A stretch of 64,000 bases of DNA from assembly GCF_003336875.1 (NCBI RefSeq), contig NZ_QGNJ01000007.1, positions 62,001 to 126,000 on the forward strand, in the 5' to 3' direction. Below are positions 37,301-56,105 of this stretch, in pieces; position 1 is the first letter of the stretch; each line of letters starts with the position of its first letter. The translations under genes and the position numbers were made by a program. The DNA comes from Oleisolibacter albus. Lineage in GTDB: Bacteria > Pseudomonadota > Alphaproteobacteria > Azospirillales > Azospirillaceae. The notes under the pieces are model-generated. The model was not told where the DNA came from. It searched no databases and saw nothing but the letters and a program-made list of their open reading frames with translations.

Positions 37301-38329
37301 ATGCGCCGTGCGATCACGCGCCCCGCATGCGAACAGGTGGCGCGTCGGCGGCTGCTGTCGGGCATGGCAGCCCTGGGCATGATGGCCGTAGCCGGGCGGG
37401 CCGGGCCGGTGCGGGCCGCCGACGCCAGCATCCGCGTCGGCATGCTGCCCTATGGCACCGTTCATTGGGAGCTGGAGACCATCCGGCGCCTGGGTCTGGA
37501 CCGGGACAACGCCGTGGCCCTGTCACCGGTCGAGCTGGCCGGTCCCCAGGCCGGACAGATCGCGCTGCAGGGCGGCGCGGCCGACATCATCGCCAGCGAC
37601 TTCCTGTGGGTGGCGCGGCAGCGCGCCGCCGGGATACCCCTGACCTTCATTCCCTATTCCAGTGCCGCCGGCGCGATGGTCGTGCCGGGCGGATCCCGCC
37701 TGTCCGGCATCGGTGATCTGGAAGGGGCCCGCATCGGCGTGGCCGGCGGGCCGTTGGACAAGGGATGGCTGCTGCTGAAAGCGGTCGCCGCCCGTCGGCA
37801 CGGGCTGGATCTCGACAAGGCAGCCAGCCCGGTCTTCGCCGCCCCGCCCCTGCTGTCGCAGCAGTTGGAGGCCGGGCGGCTGGAGGCGGTGCTGACCTAC
37901 TGGCATTTTGCCGCCCGGCTGGAGGCCAGGGGCATGCGTCAGCTGGTAGGGGTGCAGGACTTGGCCCGCGGGCTGGGATTGGAGGGGGATGTGCCGCTGC
38001 TGGGCTACGTGTTCCGGGAGGATTGGGCCCGCGCCAACCCCGATGCCATCGCCGGCTTCGCCACCGCATCCCGGCAGGCCAAGTCCGTCTTGCAACGGGA
38101 CGACCGGGCCTGGACGGCGCTACGGCCGCTGATGGAGGCGGCAGACGACGCCACGGCCGTGCGTCTGCGCGACCGGTTCCGCGCCGGCATCCCGCAGCGC
38201 TGGGGGATGGCGGAACGTCAGCAGGCGGAGCGTTTATTCGCCCTGCTGGCCGACCTGGGCGGTCCGGCGCTGGTCGGCACATCTGGCCACATCCCCGACG
38301 GCACCTTCTGGCCACTGGACTGGGGCTGA
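37301..38329 (+). CDS. ABC transporter binding protein of nitrate/sulfonate/taurine type
   Basis: This 342-residue protein has an N-terminal twin-arginine-like stretch (VARRRLLSGMAALGM) and a cleavage region ending VRAA, then the SsuA/TauA fold (IRVGMLPYGTVHWELETI, GGAADIIASDFLWVARQR, GARIGVAGGPLDKGWLLLK). It is the first gene of a rightward three-gene importer (permease 38336, ATPase 39054). The system belongs with nitrate/sulfonate/bicarbonate importers, but proteins of this subgroup are also often found beside quinoprotein and formaldehyde genes, as here, so the substrate is uncertain. The twin-arginine feature suggests possible Tat export. Confidence 0.85.
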   Translation: MRRAITRPACEQVARRRLLSGMAALGMMAVAGRAGPVRAADASIRVGMLPYGTVHWELETIRRLGLDRDNAVALSPVELAGPQAGQIALQGGAADIIASDFLWVARQRAAGIPLTFIPYSSAAGAMVVPGGSRLSGIGDLEGARIGVAGGPLDKGWLLLKAVAARRHGLDLDKAASPVFAAPPLLSQQLEAGRLEAVLTYWHFAARLEARGMRQLVGVQDLARGLGLEGDVPLLGYVFREDWARANPDAIAGFATASRQAKSVLQRDDRAWTALRPLMEAADDATAVRLRDRFRAGIPQRWGMAERQQAERLFALLADLGGPALVGTSGHIPDGTFWPLDWG

Positions 38330-38335
38330 TCGGCC

Positions 38336-39085
38336 ATGGCCCCATGGCACCGGACCCTGCTGTCCATCGCCGGATTCCTGATTCTGTGGGAACTGGCGGC
38401 ACATCTGGCCGCCAGCCCGACCCTGCCGGGGCCGGGCGCGGTGGCCCGGGTCCTGACGGCGGAAACGGCCAGCGGACAATTGCCGTACCATCTGGGCGTG
38501 ACCCTGGCGCGCGTGGCCGCCAGCTTCGCCCTGGCCATGTCCATCGGCACCGCCATCGGGCTGGCCATGGGCCGGTCGCGCAGCCTCAACGGGTTCCTGG
38601 ACCCCTGGCTGGTGCTGGCGCTGAACGTGCCGGCGCTGGTGGTGATCGTGCTGGCCTATGTCTGGATCGGGCTGACCGAGGCCGCGGCCATCGCCGCCGT
38701 GGCCATCAACAAGATCCCCAACGTGGTGGTGCAGGTGCGCGAGGGTGCCCGCGCCGCCGACCAGGGCCTGCTGGACATGGCGCGGACCTACCGGCTGTCG
38801 TGGCTGGACACGCTGCGCCATGTGCTGCTGCCGCAGTTGCAGCCCTATCTGCTGGCCGCGGCGCGCAACGGGCTGGCCCTGATCTGGAAGATCGTACTGG
38901 TGGTCGAACTGCTGGGCCGCGGCAGCGGCGTCGGCTTCAAGATCCATCTGTTCTTCCAGCTGTTCGACGTGACCGGGCTGCTGGCCTATACCCTGGCCTT
39001 CGTGGCTGTGGCGCAACTGATCGAACTGGGCCTGCTGAGCCCGATGGAGCGACATGTCGGCCGTTGGCGCACCGCCCGCCCCTGA
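38336..39085 (+). CDS. ABC transporter permease (SsuC/TauC type)
   Basis: This 249-residue permease has about six hydrophobic helices and the EAA-type loop PNVVVQVREGARAADQGLLD with DMARTYRLSWLDTLRHV. It starts six bases after the binding-protein stop and its end overlaps the ATPase start by 32 bases, consistent with one operon. It pairs with the ATPase at 39054 to import a small anion or organosulfur-like substrate; substrate is not determined. Confidence 0.88.
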   Translation: MAPWHRTLLSIAGFLILWELAAHLAASPTLPGPGAVARVLTAETASGQLPYHLGVTLARVAASFALAMSIGTAIGLAMGRSRSLNGFLDPWLVLALNVPALVVIVLAYVWIGLTEAAAIAAVAINKIPNVVVQVREGARAADQGLLDMARTYRLSWLDTLRHVLLPQLQPYLLAAARNGLALIWKIVLVVELLGRGSGVGFKIHLFFQLFDVTGLLAYTLAFVAVAQLIELGLLSPMERHVGRWRTARP

Positions 39086-39824
39086 AAGACCGGCCCTGGA
39101 TCTGAACATCGCCGAGAAGACCTTTCCCGGCCAGGGACGGCATGCCGTCCCGGTGCCGGTGGTGCGGGACCTGCGGCTGCGCGTCGGTGCGCGGGAAAGC
39201 GTGGCCCTGGTCGGCCCGTCGGGCTGCGGCAAGACCACGACGCTGGGCATCGTCGCCGGATTGGACCGGGCCTTCACCGGCACGGTTCAGGGGCCAGCGG
39301 ACGGGCGGCTGGCCTGCGTCTTCCAGGAGCCGCGGCTGCTGCCCTGGCGCAGCCTGGCGCAGAATGTGGAGCTGGTGCTGCCGCCGGCCCGCCGTGGCGA
39401 CGGCAGCGCCCGCTGCTGGCTGGAGCGCATGGGACTGGGCGAGGCAATGGCCCGCTATCCCGGGCAGGTCAGCCTCGGCATGCAGCGCCGGGCGGCGCTG
39501 GCACGGGCCTTCGTCACCGAGCCGAGCCTGCTGCTGCTGGACGAGCCCTTCGTGTCCCTGGACGGGCCGACGGCCCGGCGCCTGCGCCGGCTGCTGGTGG
39601 AGACCCTGGCCGAGCGCCCCTGTGCGGCCCTGCTGGTCACCCATGATCTGCGCGAGGCCATCACCCTGGCCGACCGCGTCCTGATCCTGTCACCGCGGCC
39701 GACCTGCATCCTGGCCGAGATCCAGGTCCCCGGCCGACGCGAGGAGCGCACCGAGACCGATGTGGAACGCCTGCGCCAGGACCTGCTCGACCGGCCGGAG
39801 CCCGCATTCCGGCTGATCGCCTGA
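39054..39824 (+). CDS. ABC transporter ATPase (SsuB/TauB type) with altered signature motif
   Basis: This 256-residue ATPase has Walker A GPSGCGKTTTLG, Q-loop VFQEPRLLPW, Walker B LLLLDEPFVSLDG and the H-loop LLVTHDLREAITLADR. The C-signature, usually LSGGMRQR, reads VSLGMQRRAALARAFV, so the first Gly-Gly pair is changed to Leu-Gly; function is still expected, since related SsuB-type proteins vary here. The first 20 residues lie inside the permease gene's end. It completes the three-gene importer. A 170-base gap separates it from the next small gene. Confidence 0.87.
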   Translation: MSAVGAPPAPERPALDLNIAEKTFPGQGRHAVPVPVVRDLRLRVGARESVALVGPSGCGKTTTLGIVAGLDRAFTGTVQGPADGRLACVFQEPRLLPWRSLAQNVELVLPPARRGDGSARCWLERMGLGEAMARYPGQVSLGMQRRAALARAFVTEPSLLLLDEPFVSLDGPTARRLRRLLVETLAERPCAALLVTHDLREAITLADRVLILSPRPTCILAEIQVPGRREERTETDVERLRQDLLDRPEPAFRLIA

Positions 39825-39994
39825 TACGGCCGGAACGGTGCCGGCCGCCCGACCGTTCGGATCGGCGCCTGACTTTTTTGCAATGCACAACGCCGCCGGC
39901 GCTGTGTACGCTATTATGCAGACCAAGTCCGGACCACCGGCACCCCTGGGAGGGGACCTCCAAACCCGTGTCCATCCCAGCCGGAGGCCGAGCC

Positions 39995-40240: not shown

Positions 40241-40263
40241 CGGCTGCCGGACCGGCAGCCGTC
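40239..40263. terminator. Bidirectional hairpin between convergent genes
   Basis: A perfect 12-bp inverted repeat (GACGGCTGCCGG / CCGGCAGCCGTC, one-base centre) overlaps the small gene's stop and precedes the cytochrome gene stop at 40279. Its symmetry fits termination from both sides; no long U-run follows. Confidence 0.7.
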
Positions 40264-40278
40264 GCATCGCGGTCCCGA

Positions 40279-40674
40279 TCAGCCCTCGGAAGCCTTGTGC
40301 AGATAGGCGATGAGGTCGGCGCGGTCCTGGGCGTTGGGCACGCCGGGGAAGGCCATCTTGTTGCCGGGCAGGAAGGCCTGCGGCTTGGTCAGCCACTGGT
40401 CCAGCTTGTCCGGCGTCCACTCGAAGTTCGCCCCCTTCAGCGCGTCGGAGTACTTGAAGCCCTCCACCGCCGCGGTGTGACGGCCGAACAGGCCGTGCAG
40501 GTTCGGGCCGACCTTGTTCGGGCCGCCCTTCTCGATGGTGTGGCAGGCCTTGCAGCGGGCGAACACCTTCTCGCCCTTGGCGGCATCGCCGTCCTCGGCG
40601 ACGGCGGCATGACCGGTCAGGGTCGCGGCCGCCAGCAGGCCGGCAAACAGCAGGGAACGCTTGAACTCCACCAT
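40279..40674 (-). CDS. Soluble class I c-type cytochrome
   Basis: This 131-residue protein has a signal peptide ([20 protein letters not shown], cleaved near AVA) and one haem-binding motif CKACH in [16 protein letters not shown], with the sixth ligand Met in GNKMAFPGV. It resembles cytochrome c2/c550 and is a periplasmic electron carrier. Located next to formaldehyde oxidation genes and a few kilobases from xoxF, it could link the quinoprotein to the terminal oxidase, though the closer partner of XoxF is the cytochrome at 50491. ATG 40674 has GGAGC upstream; the frame runs on to 40773 without a signal peptide. Confidence 0.9.
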
Positions 40675-40769
40675 GGCACCGTTGCTCCGGATCTGTTCGG
40701 GGGACGACGACGGTTGGTCCGCCGCCGGGGGAAAAGGACGGCGCCGCCCGGCCCTGGACGGCGCCATCA

Positions 40770-41630
40770 TCAAACGACCGCCGCCGCGTGGTGGCGGAGA
40801 TGGTCCTCGATCACGGTCTGGATAAAGAAATAACCGTGATCGTACCCCTCGTGCCGGCGCAGGGTCAGCGCCTGTCCGGTCTGGGTGCAGGCCTGTTCCA
40901 GCAGTTCCGGCCGCAGCTGTTCCTCCAGGAACTTGTCGGCCAGCCCCTGGTCCACCAGCAATGGACCGGGGAAGCGCCGGCCGGCCTGGAGCAGCGCCAC
41001 CGTGTCATGCTCCGCCCAGACGCTGCGATCAGAACCGAGATAGGTGCCGAACGCCTTGTGGCCCCACGGGACCTGCGACGGAGCCACGATCGGCGCCAGG
41101 GCCGAAACCGAGCGGAAACGGCCGGGATGGCGCAGCGCCAGGGTCATGGCGCCATGACCGCCCATCGAATGCCCCATGATGGACAGACGATCCAGGTCGG
41201 CCGCGGGGAAGGATGCGGCCACCGTCCGCAGCAACTCGCCGGTGATGTAGCTTTCCATGCGGAAATTGGCCGCCCAGGGCTGCGCCGTGGCATCGAGATA
41301 GAATCCCGCTGCCTCGCCGAAGTCCCAGCTGTCGCGGATGCCCGGCAGGTCCAGTCCGCGCGGGCTGGTGTCGGGCGCCAGCAGCATCAGCCCCAGTTCC
41401 GCCGCCACCTTCTCCGCCGCCGCCTTGATGAGGAAGGTGGTCTCGTCACAGGTCAGCCCGGCCAGGTACAGCAGCACGGGAACCCTGGCTCCGGTCGCGG
41501 CCGCCTGCGGCGGCTCGAACACGCCGAATTTCATCGGCGTGCCCGTGCTGCTGCTGTCATGGCGGTAATAGCCCACCCAGCCGCCGTGGCAGCGGTGGCG
41601 GGAGATGGTCTCCACCGTCGTGGTCGCCAT
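40770..41630 (-). CDS. fghA: S-formylglutathione hydrolase
   Basis: This 286-residue esterase has the alpha/beta-hydrolase catalytic triad of the FghA/esterase D group: Ser155 in GHSMGGHG, Asp227 in [12 protein letters not shown] and His265 in GYDHGYFF. It hydrolyses S-formylglutathione to formate and glutathione, the second step of glutathione-dependent formaldehyde oxidation. The gene starts at ATG 41630, 10 bases after the class III dehydrogenase gene's stop, so both form one operon. The pathway removes formaldehyde made by the XoxF-type methanol dehydrogenase encoded downstream. Confidence 0.95.
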
Positions 41631-41640
41631 GGGCCCGTCC

Positions 41641-43317
<1,677 letters not shown>

Positions 43318-43695
43318 ATGCCCCTGTCCCCCAGGATCACCGCCGGCCTGCTGCTGGCCGTGTCAACCGCCGCCCTTTCTCCCGGCACAGGCCATGCGGC
43401 GGAACCAGTGCGCAACGACTATCCCACCGAAGCCCGGGTCGACTATGTGCTGGGCTGCATGGCCAGCAACGGCCAGGGCCGCGACGTGATGGGCAAATGC
43501 GCCTGCAGCATCGACATCATCGCCGGCCAGATCAGTTACGACGACTACACGGCCGTGGAAACGGCCATGGCCATGCAGCAGATGCCGGGCGAGCGTGCCG
43601 GCATGATGCGCGACGTGGGCTGGATCAAGGATCTGCTGGAGCGGTTCCGCCAGGCCCAGATCGAGGCCGACCTGGAGTGCTTCCCCCACAGATAG
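43318..43695 (+). CDS. Small exported protein of quinoprotein clusters
   Basis: This 125-residue protein starts at ATG 43318 (GGAGG eight bases upstream) with a signal peptide (ITAGLLLAVSTAALSPG). The mature part carries three cysteines in VLGCMASNGQGRDVMGKCACS and ends ECFPHR. Similar short proteins occur in methanol dehydrogenase gene neighbourhoods but have no assigned function. It lies between the formaldehyde operon and the SoxYZ-like carrier, supporting a link to the quinoprotein system. Confidence 0.75.
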   Translation: MPLSPRITAGLLLAVSTAALSPGTGHAAEPVRNDYPTEARVDYVLGCMASNGQGRDVMGKCACSIDIIAGQISYDDYTAVETAMAMQQMPGERAGMMRDVGWIKDLLERFRQAQIEADLECFPHR

Positions 43696-43731
43696 CCCGC
43701 TTGCCGACTGACGCTGATCCCGGCACCCGGG

Positions 43732-44547
43732 TCAGGACGGCCCGCCCGGTACCGGCCAGGACTGGCGGTAGACCTTGCCTTCGCTGTCGTGGGCGTCCAC
43801 CTCCAGCGTACCGCCGGCGGCGTCGGGCACGAAGGCGAAATGCAGGCTGGGGTCCTCGCTCAGCGCGATATCGGTTTCCACCTCCGCCACGCTGCGGCCG
43901 TTGTAGCGGATGCTGACCTGCCGGACATAGTCGGCCGGGATGTAGGTACGCCCGATCTGGTCGAACTGCATGCCGGTGGCGTTGGGATGGCTGATGAGCA
44001 GTTGCGCCCGCACGGGCCGGCCTGGATGGATCTCCGCCGGCAGGTTCAGCTTCATGCGGCCGGCACGGGCGCGCGCCGCCTCCGGGTCCTTCAGGGCCGG
44101 GGCGGAGCAACCGCCGCTGGCCTTGATGAAGGTGGCGGTCTGGAGCAGGCGGCCGCTGGCCGTCTCCGCCACCGCATGCATCCAGGTATATTCATTGACG
44201 CGCACGCGCGTCTCCAGCCCGCCGGCCGGATCGGCCGCCGGCCCGAAGGTCAGGCTGTAGGCCCGCGGCACGGGATTGTCGTCGATGAAGAGATGCAGCC
44301 GGATCACCCGGTCGCCGCCGAGATCACCCAGTTGCACGCCCACAGGCACCAGCGCCGCATCGCCGGCCCGGGCCGGCGCCTGGAGCGACAGGGCCGCCCC
44401 CGCCGGTTCCGGGGTGCGGCCAGGGAAGCTCATCTCCACCACCGCCTGCCAGCGCTCCTGATCCGCCGGCGTCGGCCCCTCCTGCGCCGCCGCCGGCAGG
44501 GAGGAGACCAGGAGCAGTGCCGCGGCAGGGGACAACATCGTCTTCAT
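43732..44547 (-). CDS. SoxYZ-like carrier associated with quinoprotein dehydrogenase
   Basis: This 271-residue protein has a signal peptide (MKTMLSPAAALLLVSS, cleaved near AAAQ) and two fused domains: a SoxY-like N-terminal half ending with the swinging-arm Cys in KASGGCSAPALKD, and a SoxZ-like C-terminal half (GTLEVDAHDSEGKVYRQSWPV). It matches the quinoprotein dehydrogenase-associated SoxYZ-like carrier family. The genuine Sox thiosulfate system is not present, so the Cys probably carries a different intermediate in the alcohol-oxidation relay. GGGAG lies nine bases before ATG 44547; ATG 44562 is an alternative start. Confidence 0.9.
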   Translation of the reverse strand: MKTMLSPAAALLLVSSLPAAAQEGPTPADQERWQAVVEMSFPGRTPEPAGAALSLQAPARAGDAALVPVGVQLGDLGGDRVIRLHLFIDDNPVPRAYSLTFGPAADPAGGLETRVRVNEYTWMHAVAETASGRLLQTATFIKASGGCSAPALKDPEAARARAGRMKLNLPAEIHPGRPVRAQLLISHPNATGMQFDQIGRTYIPADYVRQVSIRYNGRSVAEVETDIALSEDPSLHFAFVPDAAGGTLEVDAHDSEGKVYRQSWPVPGGPS

Positions 44548-44552
44548 GGCGT

Positions 44553-45464
44553 TCACTCCCATTCCAGTTCGGCGTAGGCCGCCGTTATCAGCTGCGGATG
44601 ATAGGTCTCGAACAGCAGCCAGCGCGTCTTCGTCTCCGCCGCTGTGCGCGGCACCGCCTCGGCCAGACCGACACCCCGGCGCTGCAGGGTGCGCACCTCT
44701 TCCGCCACGGTGCGGAGATAGGTCCGCTGCGGCTCCAGCGCGGCGGGCCAGGGGCCGGGCGGACCGTGGCCCGGCACAACCGTTCGCGCCGGCACAGCCG
44801 CCAGATCATCCATGACCCGCAGCCAGCCCAGCAGGCTGCCATCCAGCGACGGGTGGCGGTCACGGAACAGCAGATCGCCGGTCCAGAGCGTGCCGGTGGC
44901 GGTGTCGAGCACGGTCAGGTCGTTGTTGGTATGGGCCGTGGGCCAGGCGGTCAGGCGCAGCACCCGGCCACCCAGATCGAGATCGCGGCTGTCCGTCACG
45001 GCGATGTCGACCGGCAGGACCGCGGGGACCTCATCCCCGGCGGTCCGGCTGTCGGCCTGACGCGCCCTATAGGTGTCGAAGCGGGCGGCCAGGGCGGCCG
45101 GCAGCCGGCCATGGGCAACAAGGGATGTCCCCGGATCACGGAAGGCGGCATTGCCCAGCACATGGTCCGGATGCATGTGGGTGTTGATGACATAGCGGAC
45201 CGGCAGGTCCGTGCGCTGGCGGATGGCGGCCAGCAATCCCCGCCCCAGCACCATCGAACCGCCACTGTCGATGACGGCCACCGCCGCACCGCCGACGATG
45301 AAGCCGATATTGGCGATGTCACCGCCATTGGCCGCTGTCGCATCCTCCTGACGCCCTTGATGCAGGAAGACGCCGGGCGCCACCTCCGTCACCGGCAGCG
45401 GATCGGCGGCCCGGACCGGCAGGGGAAGCAACAGGCAAGCCAGAAGCAGCAGTCCTGATCGCAT
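44553..45464 (-). CDS. Quinoprotein relay system zinc metallohydrolase
   Basis: This 303-residue periplasmic metallo-beta-lactamase-fold protein has a signal peptide (MRSGLLLLACLLLPLPVRAA), the zinc-site motif NTHMHPDHVLGN, a second His in TAHTNNDLTVLD and VVPGHGPPG. It belongs to the SoxH-related metallohydrolases associated with PQQ dehydrogenases. The neighbouring SoxYZ-like carrier is the likely partner: the hydrolase may release the product bound to the carrier Cys. The stop is six bases from the carrier start. Whether it is type 1 or type 2 of the relay system cannot be settled by eye. Confidence 0.88.
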   Translation of the reverse strand: MRSGLLLLACLLLPLPVRAADPLPVTEVAPGVFLHQGRQEDATAANGGDIANIGFIVGGAAVAVIDSGGSMVLGRGLLAAIRQRTDLPVRYVINTHMHPDHVLGNAAFRDPGTSLVAHGRLPAALAARFDTYRARQADSRTAGDEVPAVLPVDIAVTDSRDLDLGGRVLRLTAWPTAHTNNDLTVLDTATGTLWTGDLLFRDRHPSLDGSLLGWLRVMDDLAAVPARTVVPGHGPPGPWPAALEPQRTYLRTVAEEVRTLQRRGVGLAEAVPRTAAETKTRWLLFETYHPQLITAAYAELEWE

Positions 45465-45691
45465 GGGGCCGGTCCCGGATGCGGGGGAACGGCCTTTATC
45501 CTGCCCCGCGGCACCGCCCCCTGTCCCCCGGCCAAAGGGCATGGCCCCGCCCCCAGCCATGCGGATAGGGGGCGGCCTTTTTCGGCGGGATGGGTACGCA
45601 GGGTCTTGCCGCCGCCGCCGAAGCCCCGCACTGTTCCGGGAAAGACAACAGACCGACGGGCGGCACAGCCCGCGGTGGGAGGATGTCCGGC

Positions 45692-47005: not shown

Positions 47006-47983
47006 ATGGGGAGAATGCGGGCCGGACTGGCCGTGGCGCTGGGGGTGCTGACCATCCTTCCGGGAGGTGGTGCCGCGGCCTACAGCGTCTATGTCTCCAA
47101 CGAGCGGTCGAACACGGTGGCCGTGGTCGATCCGGAAACGCTGACGGTCAGCAAGACCATCCCGGTCGGGCGCCGCCCGCGCGGCATCACCTTCAGCCAT
47201 GATTACAAGCATCTTTATGTCTGCGTCGGCGACGACGACCGGGTGGACGTCATCGATACGGCCAGCGGCACCGTGGTGGACAGCCTGCCCTCTGGCCCCG
47301 ACCCGGAACTGTTCGTGCTGCACCCGCAGAAGCCCGTCCTCTACATCGCCAACGAGGACGACAACATGGTCACCGTGGTCGATACCCAGACCCGGCGCGT
47401 GCTGGGCGAGATCCAGGTGGGGGTGGAGCCGGAGGGCATGGGCATCAGCCCGGACGGCACCGTGCTGGTCAACACCTCCGAAACCACCAACATGGCCCAT
47501 TTCATCGACACCACCAGCCTGCAGATCACCGACAATGTGCTGGTGGATTCCCGGCCGCGGGTGGCCCAGTTCACGCCCGATGGCCGCCATGTCTGGGTGT
47601 CGTCCGAGATCGGCGGTACGGTCAGCGTCATCGACATGCAGACCCGGCAGGTGGTCCACAAGATCGGGTTCGAGGTGCGCGGCGTGCCCAAGGAGGCCAT
47701 CCAGGCCGTGGGCATCGAGCTGACGGCCGATGGCAGCACCGCCTTCGTCGCCCTGGGTCCATCCAACCGGGTGGCCGAGGTGGATCAGAAGACCTATGCG
47801 GTGCGGCGCTACCATCTGGTGGGGCAGCGGGTATGGAATCTGGCTCTGTCGCCGGATGGCAAGCGGCTCTACACCACCAACGGGGTCAGCAACGATGTCT
47901 CCGTCATCGATGTGGCGGCGGGCAAGGTCATCAAGAGCCTGCCGGTGGGGGATTCCCCCTGGGGCGTGGCGGTGAAGCCATGA
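47006..47983 (+). CDS. YVTN beta-propeller protein of PQQ-dependent systems (LutD-like)
   Basis: This 325-residue exported protein has a signal peptide and about seven 40-residue beta-propeller repeats of YVTN type (VYVSNERSNTVAVVD, LYIANEDDNMVTVVD, VWVSSEIGGTVSVID, LYTTNGVSNDVSVID). It matches the PQQ-dependent catabolism-associated beta-propeller family. Homologues in lanthanide clusters (LutD-like) are reported to bind lanthanide. GGGAGG precedes ATG 47006, 22 bases after the binding-protein gene, so the two are cotranscribed. Role inferred: a periplasmic partner in metal or substrate handling. Confidence 0.88.
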   Translation: MGRMRAGLAVALGVLTILPGGGAAAYSVYVSNERSNTVAVVDPETLTVSKTIPVGRRPRGITFSHDYKHLYVCVGDDDRVDVIDTASGTVVDSLPSGPDPELFVLHPQKPVLYIANEDDNMVTVVDTQTRRVLGEIQVGVEPEGMGISPDGTVLVNTSETTNMAHFIDTTSLQITDNVLVDSRPRVAQFTPDGRHVWVSSEIGGTVSVIDMQTRQVVHKIGFEVRGVPKEAIQAVGIELTADGSTAFVALGPSNRVAEVDQKTYAVRRYHLVGQRVWNLALSPDGKRLYTTNGVSNDVSVIDVAAGKVIKSLPVGDSPWGVAVKP

Positions 47984-47994: not shown

Positions 47995-48480
47995 CTATCC
48001 TGCTTCTGTCAGCCCCAACCGGTGCCGCGCCAGCCAGCGGATGCCGTGCAGCCAAGCGGCATCATTGTCACCGCGGATGTCGGCGATGCCCACGGCCACC
48101 TTTGCACCGTCCGCCACGCGGACGGCCTGGATCTGGACGCTGAGGATCAGGGTGCTGACCTTGTGCACCTGGGCGGTGAAGACCGTGTCAGCCCCCAGCG
48201 ACCGGCCCAGATCACGTTCGCAGCCATTGCAGCCATGGGACGGGCGCTGGTCGGCGATCGGCCCGGCCAGAGGGGCCGTATCCACCAGATCATAGGCGGC
48301 GGACGCCGCCACCAGCCGGCGCAGCTCATCCGTGGCCAGGGCGATGCGCGCCTGCTGGGCGGGGTTGGTCCCCTCCCCGCTGGTGTCGAGCAGATCGACG
48401 GGAAACACTGCGGCCTTCTGCGCCGCCGCGGCCCGATGCGGCAGGACCACCAAGGCCAGGGCCAGGGCGACGGAAGCCAC
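47995..48480 (-). CDS. DUF3280/DUF2380-type exported protein of quinoprotein cluster
   Basis: The protein is about 161 residues if it starts at GTG 48480. A hydrophobic stretch (VASVALALALVVLPHRAAAA) is followed by KAAVFPVDLLDTSGEG, LATDELRRLVAASAAYDLVD and GCNGCERDLGRSLGADTVFT, matching small periplasmic proteins (DUF2380/DUF3280 type) often encoded in quinoprotein dehydrogenase clusters. No upstream ATG or Shine-Dalgarno is visible, and the signal lacks the usual positive charge, so the start is uncertain. Its 5' end abuts or overlaps the divergent gene starting near 48436-48535. It is convergent with the beta-propeller gene. Function unknown. Confidence 0.7.
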   Translation of the reverse strand: MASVALALALVVLPHRAAAAQKAAVFPVDLLDTSGEGTNPAQQARIALATDELRRLVAASAAYDLVDTAPLAGPIADQRPSHGCNGCERDLGRSLGADTVFTAQVHKVSTLILSVQIQAVRVADGAKVAVGIADIRGDNDAAWLHGIRWLARHRLGLTEAG

Positions 48481-49119
48481 CGCGGCCCAGGGCGCCTGGG
48501 CGGCTTGGGCCTGAGCGGTTTGGGCCTGAGCGGTTTGCTGCTGGCGGCGGGGCTGCTGGCGGGGCCGGCCCAGGCCCAGCCCCGGGGCGGGCGCGACCCT
48601 GACTTCCCCTGCGTCCAGGTGCTGGTGCCCAGCCTGTCCCCCGGACAGATCTGGAGCGGGCCGCCCGTCGACGACATTCCGGCCGGCGCCTGGACCAGCG
48701 ACACCGAGGTGCGGCGGCTGGTGGAGATGGCCGGCGACCGCCGGGTGGGAACCGAGGCGCTGACGAGCGAGATCGACCGCTTTGCCGGCACCACCAAGGA
48801 CGGAAACCGGCTGGTGCTGCTGTTCGCCGGCGTGTTCGAAACCCTCCAGGCCGAGCGCGGCCAGTCGCTGGACGCCATCCGCCGCTATGCCCAGGGGCAG
48901 CGGCAGATGCTGGACCGTATCGCCGCCCGGCTGCGCGACCAGCAGGACCTGTCCGCCGACGATCCCCGCCGGGCCGAGATCGCGGACGCCATCGCCTGGG
49001 ACCGCCGCGTGCTGGAGGACCGGCGGCGCATGCTGCCCCCCCTGTGCGAGCGGCCCGCCCTGCTGGAGCGGCGGCTGGGCGCCGTGGCCCGCACGCTGGC
49101 CGCCCATCTGCCGCCCTGA
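48436..49119 (+). CDS. Exported helical protein of quinoprotein cluster (start uncertain)
   Basis: From ATG 48436 this reads 227 residues with a charged N-region, a hydrophobic segment (GLSGLLLAAGLLAGPAQA) and a mature part starting QPRGGRDPDFPCVQVLVPSL. The mature part is helical with paired cysteines (one in FPCVQ, one in LPPLCERPALL). Similar proteins occur beside PQQ alcohol dehydrogenases, with unknown function. No Shine-Dalgarno is visible; TTG codons at 48505, 48520 and 48535 are other possible starts. A 15-base tandem repeat encodes the N-terminal LGLSG repeats. The start region overlaps the DUF3280-type gene on the other strand. Confidence 0.6.
   Translation: MRQDHQGQGQGDGSHRGPGRLGGLGLSGLGLSGLLLAAGLLAGPAQAQPRGGRDPDFPCVQVLVPSLSPGQIWSGPPVDDIPAGAWTSDTEVRRLVEMAGDRRVGTEALTSEIDRFAGTTKDGNRLVLLFAGVFETLQAERGQSLDAIRRYAQGQRQMLDRIAARLRDQQDLSADDPRRAEIADAIAWDRRVLEDRRRMLPPLCERPALLERRLGAVARTLAAHLPP
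48505..48534. repeat. 15-bp tandem duplication at a divergent gene junction
   Basis: TTGGGCCTGAGCGGT occurs twice in tandem, giving LGLSG LGLSG in the rightward protein. It lies exactly where the two divergent genes meet, suggesting recent slippage or rearrangement of the shared upstream region. Confidence 0.7.
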
Positions 49120-49172
49120 GTGGGAGGCTCCCAGGTCCAGGCTTGTAAGGACGCGTGTGTGGACGGCACCGG

Positions 49173-50477
49173 TCATCCCTGCGGACCGCCGTCCAGCGGC
49201 GGTACCGGGACCAGCGGCTGGCGCGCCTCGGCCCAGCCATCGACGCCGTCGGGATACCAGAGAACCCGGCTGTACCCCCAGTCCAGTGCCCGTTTGGCCG
49301 CGTTCCAGGACATCCAGCAGTCACGCTTGCAGAAGATCAGCAGCGGTGTGTCGCTGCGGCCGCCGGTCAGCCGCTGCAGACCCGCACGGAAATACTGCTC
49401 CTGCGCGGGGGTGAGGTCGCCATGGCCCACATCGGGCAGCCAGGCGGCACCGGGGATGCTGTCATGCGGACGCGGCAACCAGCCGTCATCGCGACCGGCC
49501 GGCCGCTGTTCCGCCGGCAGCACGTCCAGCAGCACGGGCTTCTGCTCCGCCGCCAGCAGACGGACCACATCGGCCGTGGCCAGCACAGTGGCACCCGTCA
49601 GCGTTTCCGGCACCGGGGCGCGGTAGTCGGATTTGCGGTACTGCGCCGGCTCCGCCGGCCGGGCCTGCAGCAGCCGCCCGTCCCGGTCCAGCAGCGGCAC
49701 GCCATACCCGGCCAGCAGCGCATCGATGCGGGCTTGGTTCTTGGAAATCCAGCCATTCAGCCAGTGTTTCCAGTCCGGCTCGTCGGGGCGGATGCCCATG
49801 GAAATGGTGAAGGACAGGCGCGTGCCGGCGGCATCCGCCACCAGCGGCACCACGGTCAGCGGGACCTTCTGCTGCTTGGCCCAATAGCCGGCCAACGGCC
49901 CCCAGATCACGGCGGCATCGGTGGTGCCGGCGGCCACATCCTCGATGGCGGCGCGGGCCGGCTGATAGGCGCGGGTGTCCACCGCCAGCTGATAGGGCTC
50001 CACATTGGTCAGGCCGTAGCGCACCAGCAGATCCACCGGCGGCGTCTGCGACACCACGCCGATGCGCGTGCCTTTCAGGGCCGGATCGGCCAGCGATGTG
50101 GCGGTCAGGCCGGACTCGGTGCGGTACACCAGCGCATAGACCGAGCGGTAATAGGGATTGGTGTTCTGCATCAGCTGCTCGCCCGAGGCCGTGCCCAGGA
50201 CCAGATCGCAGCGCCGCGCTGCCAGGGTGTTGCGGACGAAGCCGATGCTCTGGGGGAACCACGTATAGGCGATGGGGATGCCGAGATCGGCGGCGATCAT
50301 CTCCGCCAGCTTGTTCTCGAAGCCCTGCCCTTTCTCGTCGCTGTAGGGCAAGGCGTTGCCGTCGGCACAGATGCGGAGCGTGTCGCGTCCGCTCTGCTCC
50401 ACGGCGGCAGCCAGGGGCGCCGCGGAGCCGGCCCATGCCAGCCCCGCCAGCAGCAGCAGGGGCAAAGCCTTGCGCAT
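49173..50477 (-). CDS. XoxJ-like binding protein fused to a rhodanese (CXXCW) domain
   Basis: This 434-residue exported protein has two parts. Residues about 30-270 are a MxaJ/XoxJ-like solute-binding domain (LRICADGNALPYSDEKGQGFEN, AYTWFPQSIGFVRNTLAARRCDLVLG), known to accompany methanol dehydrogenases and thought to help activate or load them. Residues about 300-434 form a rhodanese-like domain with FCKRDCWMSWNAAKRALDWG (Cys383, Cys387), the pattern of the PQQ-dependent catabolism-associated CXXCW family. In most genomes these are separate genes. AAGGGG lies eight bases before ATG 50477. It begins 13 bases after the cytochrome gene, in one operon with xoxF. The two domains may work together in dehydrogenase maturation. 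Confidence 0.88.
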   Translation of the reverse strand: MRKALPLLLLAGLAWAGSAAPLAAAVEQSGRDTLRICADGNALPYSDEKGQGFENKLAEMIAADLGIPIAYTWFPQSIGFVRNTLAARRCDLVLGTASGEQLMQNTNPYYRSVYALVYRTESGLTATSLADPALKGTRIGVVSQTPPVDLLVRYGLTNVEPYQLAVDTRAYQPARAAIEDVAAGTTDAAVIWGPLAGYWAKQQKVPLTVVPLVADAAGTRLSFTISMGIRPDEPDWKHWLNGWISKNQARIDALLAGYGVPLLDRDGRLLQARPAEPAQYRKSDYRAPVPETLTGATVLATADVVRLLAAEQKPVLLDVLPAEQRPAGRDDGWLPRPHDSIPGAAWLPDVGHGDLTPAQEQYFRAGLQRLTGGRSDTPLLIFCKRDCWMSWNAAKRALDWGYSRVLWYPDGVDGWAEARQPLVPVPPLDGGPQG

Positions 50478-50490
50478 GCCAGTGCCCCTT

Positions 50491-50967
50491 TCAGTTGCTG
50501 AGACGCTCGGGCCGGCCACGCTCGACCTTGCCGTCGGAGCGGGCCTTGAGATAGCGGTAGATATCGTCCAGATGGTCCATGACGTTGGGATCGGTGCCGA
50601 AGCTGGGCATGACCCGGTCGCCGGTGGCGCCGGCCACCTTGCGGCCGTTCACCACCACATCGGTGAAGGTCCAGAAATCCAGCTTCTTCAGCGATTCCGT
50701 CAGGGCCGGGGCGAAGCTGCCGCCCAGCCCGTCCGGCCCATGGCAGACATGGCAGGAGGCATGATAGCGGCGGAAGCCGTTGTAGGTGCCCGGATCGACC
50801 TTGCCATTGTCCGCCTTGTAGGTGGGAATGCCTTCGGCATCCACCAGAGGTGCAGGCTGCGGTGCAGGGCCGCTGGGCGCGGCCGCCGTCAGCAGGGCAG
50901 CGGTCAGCAGCAATGTCGCCGTCAGCGTAAGCCGGCGCAGACCGCGCCGTTGAACCAGTCGCGTCAC
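50491..50967 (-). CDS. c-type cytochrome partner of XoxF (XoxG-like)
   Basis: This 158-residue periplasmic cytochrome starts at GTG 50967 with GGAGG upstream, a signal peptide (LVQRRGLRRLTLTATLLLTA) and one haem motif CHVCH in HASCHVCHGPDGLG. MPSF near the end is a possible Met ligand. It lies between xoxF and the xoxJ-like fusion, the classic order of the xoxFGJ operon, so it is the likely electron acceptor of the dehydrogenase. It is shorter than many XoxG proteins. Confidence 0.9.
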   Translation of the reverse strand: MTRLVQRRGLRRLTLTATLLLTAALLTAAAPSGPAPQPAPLVDAEGIPTYKADNGKVDPGTYNGFRRYHASCHVCHGPDGLGGSFAPALTESLKKLDFWTFTDVVVNGRKVAGATGDRVMPSFGTDPNVMDHLDDIYRYLKARSDGKVERGRPERLSN

Positions 50968-51149
50968 CAGGAACTCCTCCCATGTGGTTTGGTTGCCACC
51001 CGGCCGGCGCCGGCCGGGCTTTCCCCCTGTTGCCGGGGGTTCGTCTGCCACCGCAGGCACCGCGCGCCGGGGACCTGTCGTGGCAAGGATCGCTCGTTCA
51101 AGGGTGATGGCGCGGGCGGCCCCCGAGGGGACCACCCGCCATGCTCCGC

Positions 51150-52997
51150 TCACTTCGATTTCAGCTCGGCGCTCTGCCGACGCGAGCCCAGTTCGAACAC
51201 GGTCAGCACGCCGCCCAGCTGGGTGTACTCACCCAGCGTGGCATGGGCACCCACCGCCCCCAGGCCCGCATTGGGTTCGGTCAGGCCGGCCGCGAGGCCG
51301 ATGCCGGCCCAGCCACCGATGCCGGACAGCACCGCGATGTACTGCTTGCCATTGTGCATATAGGTGTTGACGTTGCCGATGATGCCGCTGGGCGTCTTGA
51401 ACCGCCACAGTTCCTTGCCGTTGTTCATGTCGAAGGCGACCAGGAACCCTTCCAGCGTGCCGTAGAAACCGACGCCGGCCTTGGTGGCCAGAGCGCCCGA
51501 CCAGACGGCGAACTTCTCCGGCTTCGACCATTTCACCTTGCCGGCCACCGGATCCCAGGCGATGAAGTTGCCCATGCCGCCATGGCTGTTCGGAGCCGGA
51601 TACATGGACAGCGTCGCGCCCACATAGGGCTGGCCGGCCACGTAGCTGACCTGGAACGGTTCATAATCCATGCAGATATGGTTGGTCGGCACATAGAGCA
51701 GACCGGTATCCGGCGAGAAGGCCGAGGGCTGCTGGTCCTTGGACCCCAGCGCCGCCGGGCAGACGCCCTTGGAGTTGGTGTCCTCGCCATTGGCGAAGGT
51801 GCTGTACTTCTCGTTCACCACCGGCCGGCCGGTCTTCTTGTCGACCCGGTCGGCCCAGTTCACCGACGGGTCGTACTTCTCCGCCACCAGCAGTTCGCCG
51901 GTGACACGGTCCAGCGTGTAGCCGAAGCCGTTGCGGTCCATATTGATCAGGACCTTGCGCTTCTTGCCGTCCATGGTCACGTCGGCCAGGACGTTCTCAT
52001 TGACGCCGTCATAGTCCCACTCGTCGAACGGCGTCTTCTGATACAGCCATTTCACCTCGCCCGTATCAGCATCGCGGGCGAAGATGGTCATGGACCATTT
52101 GTTGTCGCTGCCCTCGCGCTTGCCGTCCTTGGCCCGCTGCTTGGGGTTCCAGGTGCCCGGATTGCCGGTGCCGTAATAGATCAGGTTCAGCTCGGGATCA
52201 TAGGTGTACCAGCCCCAGGTGGTGCCGCCGCCGATCTTCCATTCCTCGCCGGGCCAGGTCTTGACGCCCAGATCGGTCTCGCCGATGGGCTTGCCCAGCA
52301 TCAGCGTCTTCTTCGGGTCGATCTTCACATCCTTGTCCGGGCCGGTGGAATAGGCCCGCCAGGCCTGCTTGCCCGACTTCACGTCATAGGCCGTCAGATG
52401 GCCGCGGACGCCGAATTCACCGCCGGAAATGCCGACCAGGACCTTGTCCTTCACCACCACGGGGGCCGCGGTCAGTGTCTCGCCCTTGCCGGCATCGCCG
52501 TTCTGGACCTTCCACAGCTCCTTGCCGGTGTTGGCGTCCAGCGCCACCAGCGTGTTGTCGGCCTGCCCCAGGAACACCCGCCCCTCGGCCACGGCAACGC
52601 CGCGGTTGACCGTGTCGCAACACATCACCGGAATGACCGAGGCATCCTGGCGGGGTTCGTACTTCCACTTCACCCGTCCCTGGTCCTTGAGATCCAGGGC
52701 ATAGACGATGTTGGGAAAGGGGGTGTGGATGTACATGGTGTCCCCCACCACCAGCGGGCCGCCTTCATGGCCGCGCAGGACGCCGGTGGAGAAGGTCCAG
52801 GCCACCCGCAGATCCTGGACATTGTCCTTGGTGATCTGATCCAGGGTGCTGTAGCGCTGGCCATAGTAATTGCCAAGCTGCATGGCCCAGTTCGCCGGGT
52901 CCTTGGTCAGCTTGTTGACAGCATCATTGGCCAAGGCCGGTCCCGCCAGAAGCAGCGCGACAGCGGATGTGAGCAGATAACGAGAGCACGCCCTCAT
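51150..52997 (-). CDS. xoxF: Lanthanide-dependent PQQ methanol dehydrogenase
   Basis: This 615-residue periplasmic quinoprotein starts at ATG 52997 (GGAGG upstream) with a signal peptide cleaved near LANDAVN. It has the eight-bladed propeller fold, the vicinal disulfide Cys126-Cys127, metal ligands Glu194 and Asn279, and active-site Asp328 followed by Asp330 in EWDYDGVNE. Asp330 replaces the Ala of calcium-type MxaF and marks lanthanide-using XoxF enzymes. Trp261 stacks on PQQ. It oxidises methanol (and probably other alcohols) to aldehyde, passing electrons to the cytochrome encoded next. No MxaF or MxaI is present. PQQ synthesis genes are outside this window. Confidence 0.97.
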
Positions 52998-53442: not shown

Positions 53443-54255
53443 TCAGGCGTCCCCCGCCCCGGCCTTGCGGGGCATCAGGCCCCGCGCCGGGTTGTAGGCC
53501 CAGAAGGACAGCAGCAGGACCACGATCATGGTCAGCACGACCCATCCCAAGGCGGTGCCGTCCACCTGCCCGTAGAGGGCGAAGCGCACCAGCTCGACGA
53601 CATGGGAGAACGGATTGAACCGGCAGACCTGCCAGAGCAGTTCGCTGGATTCGCGCATCTTCCACAGGGGATAAAGGGCCGATGACAGGAAGAAGGCCGG
53701 GAAGATGACGAAGTTCATCACCCCGGCGAAATTCTCCAGCTGGCGGATGGTGGAGGACAGCAGCATGCCCACCGCCCCCAGCATCAACCCGGCCAGCAGC
53801 AGTGCCGGCAGCACCGTGACATAGCCGTCCGGCGGCGCCGCGATCCCGAACAGGGCGGCCACGCCCAGGAAGGCATAGACCTGCAGGATGCCCACGGCGC
53901 TGCCGGCCAGGAGCTTGGCCGTCAGCAGGAATTCCCGCGGCAGCGGACTGACCAGCAGCAGCCGCATGCTGCCCATTTCCCGGTCATAGACCATGGACAG
54001 GCTGCTCTGCATGCCGTTGAACAGCAGGATCATGGCGCAGAGGCCGGGCAGGATGTAGGTCTCATAGGTGATATAGGTCTCGTAGGGCGGCTGCACCGAG
54101 ACACCCAGGGCCGCGCGGAAGCCGGCGGCGAAGATCAGCAGCCAGACCAGCGGCCGCACCAGGGCCGAAACGAAGCGTTCGCGCTGATGCACGAAGCGCA
54201 GCAGTTCCCGCCACACCACCGCCCGCAAGGCCCGAAGATAGCCGGCCGCCGTCAT
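53443..54255 (-). CDS. ABC-2 type permease of PQQ-associated transporter (LutF-like)
   Basis: This 270-residue inner-membrane protein has six hydrophobic helices (LVRPLVWLLIFAAGFRAALG is the first). The ABC-2 wording GMQSSLSMVYDREMGSMRLL is followed by FSHVVELVRFALYG. It matches the permease of the ABC system accompanying PQQ alcohol dehydrogenases. Its start overlaps the ATPase stop (ATGA at 54252-54255). Homologues in the Methylorubrum lanthanide cluster are named LutF. Direction is the same as xoxF. The transporter is expected to import or export a metal chelate or product; direction is not settled by sequence. Confidence 0.88.
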   Translation of the reverse strand: MTAAGYLRALRAVVWRELLRFVHQRERFVSALVRPLVWLLIFAAGFRAALGVSVQPPYETYITYETYILPGLCAMILLFNGMQSSLSMVYDREMGSMRLLLVSPLPREFLLTAKLLAGSAVGILQVYAFLGVAALFGIAAPPDGYVTVLPALLLAGLMLGAVGMLLSSTIRQLENFAGVMNFVIFPAFFLSSALYPLWKMRESSELLWQVCRFNPFSHVVELVRFALYGQVDGTALGWVVLTMIVVLLLSFWAYNPARGLMPRKAGAGDA

Positions 54256-54995
54256 GCCGCGTTGCTCCCGACCAGGGTGTGGAAGGCCCGGTCCAGCGAT
54301 GGCGCGTCCGCCCGCGCCTTGAGGTCGGCCACGGAGCCGCTGGCCACCACCTGTCCCCGGTCCAGCAGCACCACGGCATCCTCCGCTCCGATCTCGTCGA
54401 ACAGGTGTGTGGCCCAGAGGGCCGCCACGCCCTCCTCCCGGCAGAGGGCGTGGACATGCTCGACCAGGGCCCGCCGCGACGGCACATCCAGCCCCACCGT
54501 CGGCTCGTCCAGCACCAGCAGACGCGGCCGGTGCAGCAGGGCGCGGGCCAGTTCCACCCGCCGGCGATGGCCGCCATTGAGCTGGCGCACCCGCTCCCCC
54601 GCCCGCTCGGCCAGGGCGAAACGGTCCAGCAGGGCGGCGATGCGGGGGTCGTAGTCACACCGCGCCATCCCCCGCAGGCCGGCGGCATAGACCAGATTCT
54701 GCCGGACGCTGAGGTCGAGATCGAGGGTGGACTGCTGGAACACCACCCCCATGCAGGCCAGGGCCTTGCGCGGGTCGCGCCGCAGATCGTGGCCGCAGAC
54801 CGACACCGTGCCGGCGGCGGCATCGAACAGGCGGGTGATGACGGCCAGCAGCGTGGTCTTGCCGGCACCGTTGACGCCCAGCAGGGCCGTGAACCCGCCC
54901 GGCGCCACCTGGAAGCCGATGTCGCGGATGGCGAAACCGCCGGACCGGCCGGCATAGCCGAACCCGACCCCCGCCAGTTCCAGCGCCGGCACCAT
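54252..54995 (-). CDS. ABC ATPase of PQQ-associated transporter (LutE-like)
   Basis: This 247-residue ATPase has Walker A LLGVNGAGKTTLL, Q-loop VFQQSTLDLDL, signature QLNGGHRRRVELARAL (LSGGQ variant with Asn and His), Walker B LLVLDEPTVGLDV and His in LWATHLFDEIG. It matches the ATPase of the PQQ-dependent alcohol dehydrogenase ABC system. The first codons have several possible starts; ATG 54995 and GTG 54992 both follow GGGAGG closely. It is the upstream gene of the pair with the permease at 53443. Confidence 0.9.
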   Translation of the reverse strand: MVPALELAGVGFGYAGRSGGFAIRDIGFQVAPGGFTALLGVNGAGKTTLLAVITRLFDAAAGTVSVCGHDLRRDPRKALACMGVVFQQSTLDLDLSVRQNLVYAAGLRGMARCDYDPRIAALLDRFALAERAGERVRQLNGGHRRRVELARALLHRPRLLVLDEPTVGLDVPSRRALVEHVHALCREEGVAALWATHLFDEIGAEDAVVLLDRGQVVASGSVADLKARADAPSLDRAFHTLVGSNAA

Positions 54996-55421
54996 CACCT
55001 CCCCACCCCGGCGCCGGCCCCGGACGGCCGGAGACGGCGGGCCGCGACAGGGGGGCCGGCAGGCCGGCAAACCGGCCCGGCGATGATCCGGCGGCGCGGG
55101 GGCCGAACGATAGCGGACAGGCGCATCTCCTTTACCGGTCAGGAACGGCGGCGGGCAGGGAAAACCGCGCGCCCCTTCCCCGGCAGAGTGCGCGGGGCCG
55201 CGTCCGCGGACCACCTGTACTTTCGCACAAGAGGACGGACCAGAGCCGCCTGCGCCGCCGACAGCCCGGCCCTGGCGGCGTTTCCCGCGTCCGGCGGGGC
55301 CCGAAGGCGTGTGCGCCCTATCCCGTCCCGCTGTTGTCAGGGCCGGATCAAGTCCGTTAGTCTCATGCCCACTGAAAACGGCCAGCAGAGCCGGGCTATA
55401 AAATCAAACCGGGAGGACGTC
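54996..55421. other. Divergent GC-rich intergenic region before a LuxR regulator
   Basis: This 426-base region separates the LutE-like gene and the response regulator. It is GC-rich with no supported gene and no clear hairpin of terminator type. Promoters for both are expected here. Confidence 0.5.
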
Positions 55422-56105
55422 GTGGGCAAAGTGCTGATTTCCGACGATCATCCGCTGGTCCGTGACGGTCTGCGCACCGTCCTGGCCGTGGCTTTCGACC
55501 GCTGCGAGCTGTTGGAAGCCGGCGATCTGGATGAAACCATCCACATCATCGACCGCGAAGGCGACCTTGATCTGGTGTTGCTGGACCTGAACATGCCGGG
55601 CATGAACGGGTTCGACGGGCTGGCGCGGCTGCGCCAGCGCTATCCCGCCCTGCCGGTGGTCATCGTGTCCGCCAGCTGCGACCGCCGGCTGGTGTCGGAC
55701 GCCCTGCGTCACGGGGCGGCCGGGTTCGTGCCGAAATCACTGCCGCGCAGCGTCATCGCCGGAGCCCTGCGCGGTGTGCTGGACGGGGAGGTCTTCGCCC
55801 CGGCCGGTCTGGACGAGGCGGAGGCCGATGCCGCCGCCGACGCGGAGAAGGAAATCCGCCGCCGCATCGACAGCCTGACGCCACAGCAGCGGCGGGTGCT
55901 GGAACTTGTGGTGGCGGGCCGGCTGAACAAGGAGATCGCCTATGAGCTGGACGTGACCGAGACCACGGTGAAGGCCCATGTCTCCGCCATCCTGCAGAAG
56001 CTGCAGGTGTTCAGCCGCACCCAGGCCGTGATCCTGGCCAACCGTGTGCACTTCACCCCGGCGCCCCAGAGCGGCGGTCCCCTGGCCCGGGTTGCCAGCC
56101 ATTGA
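55422..56105 (+). CDS. LuxR-family response regulator (ErbR/AgmR-like)
   Basis: This 227-residue regulator has a receiver domain (acidic residues ISDDHP, phospho-acceptor Asp55 in LLDLNMPGMNG, Lys105 in VPKSLP) and a C-terminal LuxR helix-turn-helix at about residues 150-210 (LTPQQRRVLELVVAGRLNKE, TETTVKAHVSAILQKL). GTG 55422 has GGGAGG six bases upstream; ATG 55365 is in frame but lacks one. The family includes ErbR/AgmR, which activate quinoprotein alcohol dehydrogenase genes. It lies beside the XoxF block and a NahK/ErcS'-like kinase, so it is probably that system's output regulator. Confidence 0.87.
   Translation: MGKVLISDDHPLVRDGLRTVLAVAFDRCELLEAGDLDETIHIIDREGDLDLVLLDLNMPGMNGFDGLARLRQRYPALPVVIVSASCDRRLVSDALRHGAAGFVPKSLPRSVIAGALRGVLDGEVFAPAGLDEAEADAAADAEKEIRRRIDSLTPQQRRVLELVVAGRLNKEIAYELDVTETTVKAHVSAILQKLQVFSRTQAVILANRVHFTPAPQSGGPLARVASH

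Follow-up and report, generated by a model that had tools for sequence, protein, structure and literature searches.

In a window of 64,000 nucleotides from the genome of the alphaproteobacterium Oleisolibacter albus, the genes of a lanthanide-type methanol dehydrogenase, XoxF, stand together with genes for uptake, electron transfer, a thiol relay and formaldehyde disposal. The window is the whole stretch that was analysed (G000:C42:62001-126000; the genome is 4.69 Mb in 44 contigs), where G-numbers designate genomes, C-numbers contigs of the window genome, and L-numbers fetched loci. Gene models were obtained from codon scoring, and their proteins were scanned with NCBIfam and Pfam. The island genes from XoxF to FghA and the Lut/Ped-type ATP-binding cassette (ABC) set occupy 37.3-55.0 kb. 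Read from right to left, the minus strand holds the LutE- and LutF-type genes (55.0-53.4 kb), XoxF (53.0-51.15 kb), XoxG and XoxJ, followed by a DUF2380 gene, a SoxH-like hydrolase, a SoxYZ-like carrier, a class III alcohol dehydrogenase, FghA and a cytochrome c550 (to 40.3 kb). The plus strand holds the LutA- and beta-propeller genes (45.7-48.0 kb) and a further ABC unit at 37.3-39.8 kb. Gene identities, key residues, one gene fusion and gene neighbourhoods are the observed material. Every gene named by the original prediction, which was made by a model from the letters and their open reading frames, was recovered in or near the span given, with NCBIfam matches over cut-off, except XoxG, which fell just under. 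That span stops at 56105, where a LuxR-type response regulator starting near 55.4 kb also ends.

XoxF defines the island. In an alignment to PDB chains, its key segment reads DEWDYDG, in which D328 is the catalytic residue and D330 the lanthanide ligand. D330 aligns with the Asp of the lanthanide enzymes 6oc5 and 6dam (WDFDG and WDYDG), whereas the calcium-type 4tqo and 1lrw read WDYAG; the earlier claim of an Asp330 in DYDG is thus borne out. In a PDB search, XoxF scored 933 bits to 6oc5 and 852 to 6dam, against at most 677 for calcium-type methanol dehydrogenases and at most 383 for the quinohemoprotein and ethanol dehydrogenases listed, these being similarity scores and not a tree. The vicinal Cys pair is also present. 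By sequence, the window XoxF is a lanthanide-type methanol dehydrogenase. The NCBIfam matches and the PDB comparison support the broader claim of a lanthanide-type pyrroloquinoline quinone (PQQ) methanol dehydrogenase accompanied by uptake, relay and formaldehyde-disposal genes. Compared with 6oc5 and 6dam, the protein also carries a seven-residue insertion at about residues 289-296, preceding the DNKWSM segment.

The Lut/PedA1A2BC set is complete, with TIGR03863, TIGR03866, TIGR03864 and TIGR03861 all over their curated cut-offs. The ABC parts had been likened to Lut as a whole; this holds for the genes matching these four models, but not for the unit at 37301-39824, which is of the PqqT type (9b1u/9b1v match). 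It had also been stated that no MxaF, LanM or dedicated TonB receptor is adjacent, which is true for adjacency, the nearest TonB receptor lying at 29540-31708. No LutH-type receptor was recognised among the gene models of 32-64 kb, although not every model was family-scanned and the genome was not searched with LutH. Lanmodulin was not found in a genome search with EF-hand_7, which gave one match over cut-off that is not LanM-like and one below cut-off that was left unexamined. The loops of the former lack proline at position 2, a LanM feature. The receptor at 29540-31708 (minus strand) lies 5.6 kb left of pqqT, beside a putative two-component system (27608-29408, minus strand, assigned by eye). 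Both this receptor and the one after pqqT in a Niveispirillum metagenome-assembled genome (L056) gave only distant siderophore- and colicin-receptor matches and no assignment. The features of the island and its flanks are collected in Table 1.

Table 1. Genes of the XoxF island and its flanks, in window numbering
Feature	Position	Strand	Evidence and remarks
Porin-like outer-membrane protein (label by eye)	35448..36863	-	No Pfam match; divergent from pqqT; perhaps part of island
PqqT homologue, periplasmic PQQ-binding protein of ABC transporter	37301..38329	+	PDB 9b1u/9b1v
PqqT-type ABC permease	38336..39085	+	SsuC/TauC-like, far below every curated cut-off; usually adjoins pqqT
PqqT-type ABC ATPase	39054..39824	+	SsuB-like; usually adjoins pqqT
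Soluble cytochrome c550-like protein	40279..40674	-	NF043008, below cut-off
S-formylglutathione hydrolase FghA	40770..41630	-	TIGR02821 393 bits, over cut-off
Class III alcohol dehydrogenase / S-(hydroxymethyl)glutathione dehydrogenase (AdhC)	41641..42756	-	TIGR02818 656 bits, over cut-off; start by script
Unnamed four-cysteine protein, secreted by look of N terminus	43318..43695	+	No NCBIfam/Pfam family
Fused SoxYZ-like carrier	43732..44562	-	TIGR04557 224 bits, cut-off 140
SoxH-like zinc metallohydrolase (quinoprotein relay type 2)	44553..45464	-	TIGR04559 367 bits, cut-off 280
LutA/PedA1-like substrate-binding protein	45683..46984	+	TIGR03863 474 bits, over cut-off
PedA2-like beta-propeller	47015..47983	+	TIGR03866 497 bits, over cut-off
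DUF2380/DUF3280 protein	47995..48480	-	PF11684 122 bits; start by inspection
Function-unknown protein, N terminus looks secreted	48511..49119	+	No family; start approximate
XoxJ fused to CXXCW rhodanese domain	49173..50477	-	TIGR03871 282 bits + TIGR03865 198 bits
XoxG cytochrome	50491..51051	-	TIGR03874 151.5 bits, just under cut-off 161.75; start approximate
XoxF lanthanide-type methanol dehydrogenase	51150..52997	-	TIGR03075 over cut-off; best PDB match 6oc5, E 5e-280
LutF/PedC-like permease	53443..54255	-	TIGR03861 419 bits, over cut-off
LutE/PedB-like ATPase	54252..54995	-	TIGR03864 316 bits, cut-off 302
LuxR-type response regulator, ErdR-like	55422..56105	+	NF041830 194 bits, below cut-off 390; start approximate
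NahK/ErcS-family hybrid histidine kinase	58468..61143	-	NF041832 488 bits, over cut-off
NosP-like FIST protein	61140..62285	-	PF08495 + PF10442

The fusion of XoxJ to a CXXCW rhodanese domain (TIGR03865) was not seen by the original prediction. Its XoxJ part matches PDB 6onp (XoxJ) and 9ism (MxaJ), and the same fusion is present in five other loci, three of Chelativorans and one each of Breoghania and Pararhizobium (L063-L066, L082). The first cysteine of the rhodanese is kept in 13/13 aligned sequences and CxxxCW in 12/13. In L070 the XoxJ/rhodanese gene is broken by frameshifts, and alignments A1 and A3 do not include this locus. The fold model of the fusion, with a mean predicted local distance difference test score (pLDDT) of 69.7 and a predicted template modelling score (pTM) of 0.49, is too weak for domain placement. 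MxaJ, a homologue of XoxJ, and a dehydrogenase large subunit are chains of the same PDB entry, 9ism. A limited literature search found no published account of the fusion. By placing the rhodanese with the dehydrogenase's partner XoxJ, the fusion speaks for XoxF being matured or repaired rather than for its product being handled, and this argument from gene fusion suggests that the sulfur relay may act on the dehydrogenase itself.

The carrier bears its arm cysteine, Cys152, in a GGC motif between the SoxY and SoxZ domains, and GGC is kept in 23/23 aligned sequences. In a profile search its halves match SoxY and SoxZ chains, respectively, while both true SoxYZ models stay below cut-off (TIGR04488, 45 of 125 bits; TIGR04490, 58 of 76 bits). 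Residues 152-154 of the structure model form a low-confidence stretch between two domains, and a fold search with the model returned SoxYZ-complex chains among its matches, with three unrelated chains ranking above them by E-value. As modelled, the arm is tethered at both ends, unlike the free C-terminal arm of true SoxY. The SoxH-like hydrolase contains HxHxDH, a motif complete in 21 of 22 aligned sequences. The L051 hydrolase, beside an ethanol-type enzyme, reads SNLHPDY, without the first and last motif histidines, and the carrier Cys is kept at that locus.

The protein at 43318-43695 represents a candidate part of the relay that is nameless in NCBIfam and Pfam. Its homologues (29-57% identity) occur at 8 of the 22 fetched loci with a carrier match, directly adjoining the carrier in six (L040, L042, L044, L045, L046, L061) and about 3 kb off in two (L036, L039); the other 14 loci show none in the fetched stretch. 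A ninth homologue lies near XoxJ in L128. All four cysteines are kept in 10/10 distinct sequences; the L045 homologue contains ambiguous bases. The original prediction was correct that the role of the carrier and metallohydrolase is not known: PMC12997753 says so, and acknowledges as a gap what the rhodanese, the SoxYZ-like protein and the SoxH-like protein do next to lanthanide dehydrogenases.

Because a search in named genomes is open to bias, 289 genomes sampled evenly across the class were searched as well. The cross-tables were hand-counted and Fisher-tested, and since related genomes are not independent, the P values overstate the evidence. The TIGR04557 carrier was over cut-off in 26/289 genomes, namely in 15 of the 17 with XoxF at 60% identity or more (one XoxF match among the 17, in G027, being partial) versus 11 of the 272 others. 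The rhodanese TIGR03865 was over cut-off in 8/289, all 8 among the 26 carrier genomes. A clear pqqT (E 1e-70 or better) was present in 30/289 genomes, in 14/17 XoxF genomes versus 16/272 others, and in 17 of the 26 carrier genomes. Additionally, all 24 scorable rows of PQQ-dependent alcohol dehydrogenases in the fetched loci have Asp at the D330 position, L037 reading YDYDS and not WDxDG.

Given these genes and their associations, we read the island as one for periplasmic, lanthanide-dependent oxidation of methanol (alcohol), of the known xox/lut/ped kind, with a probability of roughly 0.8. For the substrates, the metal used, the direction of transport and the relay's target, we infer the following. 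The Lut/Ped-type ABC system would handle the lanthanide, and the PqqT-type ABC system would bind and retrieve PQQ. XoxF with PQQ and lanthanide would convert methanol to formaldehyde, passing electrons to XoxG and soluble cytochrome c, and AdhC and FghA would convert formaldehyde to formate. The rest of the genome supplies PQQ synthesis, a calcium MxaF system and RuBisCO. The SoxYZ-like carrier, the SoxH-like hydrolase, the rhodanese and the four-cysteine protein would most likely make up a thiol/sulfur relay in the periplasm by which the dehydrogenase is matured or repaired. That the dehydrogenase is the target of this relay is a tentative assignment, which we place somewhat short of an even chance.

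Two other roles for the relay have to be weighed. It might strip off sulfite or thiol adducts and so shield PQQ from sulfur nucleophiles; PMC12997753 puts this forward as an alternative, and the chemistry of a Sox-type carrier and a rhodanese would suit sulfur removal, yet we consider it unlikely. Equally doubtful is a role in handling the product, in which the arm Cys would capture formaldehyde as a hemithioacetal, oxidation would give a thioester, and the metallohydrolase would free periplasmic formate, as a counterpart of the glutathione route. The invariant arm Cys and the metal-ligand motif suit such chemistry, the hydrolase is weakly GloB-similar, and AdhC and FghA of the glutathione pathway are encoded alongside. 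However, the fused rhodanese implicates XoxJ and not product handling, an oxidase for the thiohemiacetal is not apparent, and the carrier and hydrolase also accompany ethanol-type (ExaF-like) dehydrogenases with 37-39% identity to XoxF (L051, L053), whose products are presumably other aldehydes. Maturation or repair of the dehydrogenase, which the fusion favours, remains the preferred role of the relay.

The ABC unit at 37.3-39.8 kb is a second uptake system inside the island. Its binding protein has no fitting NCBIfam model, and matches the solved PQQ-binding protein PqqT (PDB 9b1u/9b1v) at E 2e-70 over residues 43-334 of 342. In the PqqT alignment (A1; 16 of 28 loci plus the window, L070 being left out as frameshifted in both pqqT and XoxJ), 37 residues, including K154, are invariant in the 17 sequences. 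The lysine of the LDKxW motif is invariant in 17/17, and from the numbering it is presumably K142 of the literature. PqqT is reported to bind PQQ with a Kd of 50 nM (PMC12124388).

The neighbours of pqqT agree with this assignment. Named genomes gave 28 pqqT loci, with PQQ or lut genes in the fetched flanks of 17. The class draw gave another set of 28 loci (regions up to 20 kb, excluding those of the window and of G051). PQQ or lut genes lie no more than about 10 kb from pqqT in 17 of these, and lut genes in 15. The control was a hand-picked set of 20 paralogous binding-protein loci, chosen among the weak matches that this search had also given; 12 come from genomes carrying pqqT as well, and PQQ or lut neighbours were found at 0/20. 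For pqqT and control alike, an ATPase had to reach 44% identity to count as LutE, and matches to NahK, NosP, cytochrome, FghA, AdhC and ExaC did not qualify as PQQ neighbours. In four of the 17 linked loci from named genomes, all of them Neomegalonema records, pqqCDE lies upstream of pqqT on the same strand. The unit is a PqqT-type transporter, not a Lut system, and is predicted to bind PQQ. That it instead carries sulfonate or another NitT/TauT substrate and stands beside the island by chance is very unlikely: its permease and ATPase resemble SsuC and SsuB, but all scores of the unit lie far below the sulfonate cut-offs, and the PqqT match, on which a sulfonate transporter was rejected, the linkage at 17/28 versus 0/20 loci and the Neomegalonema order all speak against it.

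The genus-mate G175 (L105) has a related arrangement, in the order propeller-LutE-LutF, a porin-like gene on the opposite strand, then PqqT-permease-ATPase-TonB receptor. Its porin-like gene is 67% identical to the window gene at 35.4-36.9 kb and takes the same divergent position beside pqqT. No XoxF was found in the G175 genome at 60% identity, which makes the xox island a variable feature of the genus. As further observations on L105, the TonB receptor is 84% identical to that of the Niveispirillum genome (L056), and lut genes and ethanol-type PQQ dehydrogenases stand beside the pqqT unit. A limited literature search found no published account of PQQ uptake linked to lanthanophore or ABC uptake. 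A bolder proposal, and in our view an improbable one, is that PQQ recovery and lanthanide uptake form one functional module in alphaproteobacteria. The PqqT and Lut systems would be encoded together as cofactor and metal are taken up, perhaps bound, together, PQQ being part of the lanthanide carrier, and the XoxJ-rhodanese fusion, SoxYZ, SoxH and the new four-cysteine protein would form a thiol relay loading or repairing the lanthanide dehydrogenase.

Several points weigh against the interpretation given above. Minimal phenotypes for the three relay genes were reported from random barcode transposon sequencing (RB-TnSeq) of Pseudomonas putida without lanthanide (PMC12997753). The fusion is not the rule, as 4 of the 10 fetched loci with XoxJ and rhodanese have them as separate genes (L036, L039, L048, L049) and another of the 10 is the frameshifted L070. 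In two of the 17 genomes with XoxF (G131, G027) the carrier was not found over cut-off, and the Aquamicrobium locus L068 has xoxFGJ without carrier, hydrolase or rhodanese, in a flank that ends just past xoxJ. With Asp in all 24 rows, the sample is no evidence that calcium enzymes go without the relay. Only three genomes of the draw have an MxaF-like match and no XoxF (G071, G137, G140; named by 49-53% identity to XoxF and not by residues), with the carrier over cut-off in 0/3. Finally, 11 of the 28 class-draw pqqT loci have no PQQ or lut neighbour, and two of these sit on contigs that are 3-5 kb long.

The rest of the genome bears on the lifestyle of the organism. The genes pqqE, D, C and B lie at C42:126462-129515 (64462-67515 in window numbering), starting 0.46 kb right of the window. 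They are followed by an OprC-like copper TonB receptor (L088:6352-8370, C42:130352-132370) and an ExaC-type acetaldehyde dehydrogenase. This receptor was considered as a PQQ or lanthanide receptor and rejected, TIGR01778 being over cut-off. Contig C16 carries mxaF (WDYAG), mxaJ (TIGR03870), mxaG (TIGR03872) and mxaI (PF02315), together with a seven-gene run (L091:4267-11249) resembling by eye the mxaRSACKL region, a kinase and a regulator. A RuBisCO large chain, form I-like, has the DFTKDDEN loop and is closest among solved large chains to 25hn and 1bxn (910 and 872 bits); the small chain adjoins it. Fae was not found in a genome search. The genome thus holds what marks a methylotroph, namely a methanol dehydrogenase, formaldehyde oxidation and a key enzyme of C1 assimilation, the search not extending to formate dehydrogenase or the rest of the Calvin cycle. 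A glutathione-linked XoxF-Calvin route is described for Bradyrhizobium and Sinorhizobium in PMC12628762. The gene set fits such a route, within a search that did not include Gfa or formate dehydrogenase.

The locus had been taken for a reduced arrangement in a probable non-methylotrophic alphaproteobacterium. This reading is not supported: mxaFJGI, pqqBCDE and RuBisCO are all present, and they point to a probable methylotroph equipped with methanol dehydrogenases of both types. With PQQ synthesis next door, the calcium MxaF system and RuBisCO, the cell would probably be a facultative methylotroph choosing between lanthanide and calcium enzymes.

The ErdR-like regulator, the NahK/ErcS-family kinase and the NosP-like protein stand right of the island. 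Regulators of these types, the NahK-NosP pair among them, recur beside PQQ-dehydrogenase genes in L053, L068, L080 and L083, and the P. putida ped cluster holds the same kinase type (PMC12997753). Between these genes, at 57402-58130 (plus strand), there is a weak match to HEPN_AbiU2, a domain named after abortive infection (27.8 bits, cut-off 26.8). Homologues of the DUF2380/DUF3280 gene occur in L036, L039, L043, L066, L070 and L082, and those of the protein at 48511-49119 in L045, L046 and L068.

The island itself is an ordinary example of its kind, in a host genome that probably holds both methanol dehydrogenase systems. The new findings are modest yet open to test: the link between a PqqT system and lut genes, the XoxJ-rhodanese fusion and the unnamed four-cysteine neighbour of the carrier. 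Each lends itself to a concrete experiment.

Known systems share parts of this arrangement. With the lut and xoxFGJ genes of Methylorubrum extorquens AM1 (PMC7391723), the window has in common XoxF/G/J, the LutA-, LutE- and LutF-type genes and PQQ genes near xox. However, M. extorquens AM1 has lut and lanM in one cluster with the TonB receptor LutH, whereas the window has no adjacent TonB receptor and no LanM was found; unlike AM1, it has the XoxJ-rhodanese fusion and a PqqT transporter inside the island. The ped cluster of P. putida KT2440 (PMC12997753) shares PedA1A2BC, the SoxYZ-like PP_2677, the SoxH-like PP_2678, the rhodanese PP_2666 and the NahK-like PedS1. It has ethanol-type PedE/PedH and a separate rhodanese gene, in contrast to the XoxF-type enzyme, fused rhodanese and AdhC/FghA of the window. 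Bradyrhizobium and Sinorhizobium (PMC12628762) have xoxF with glutathione-linked genes nearby and RuBisCO in common with the window genome, which, unlike them, also has mxaFJGI. The islands of Chelativorans, Breoghania and Pararhizobium (L063-L066, L082) differ from the window in gene order and strands, but share with it pqqT-permease-ATPase beside xoxF, xoxG and the xoxJ/rhodanese fusion, the hydrolase and SoxYZ.

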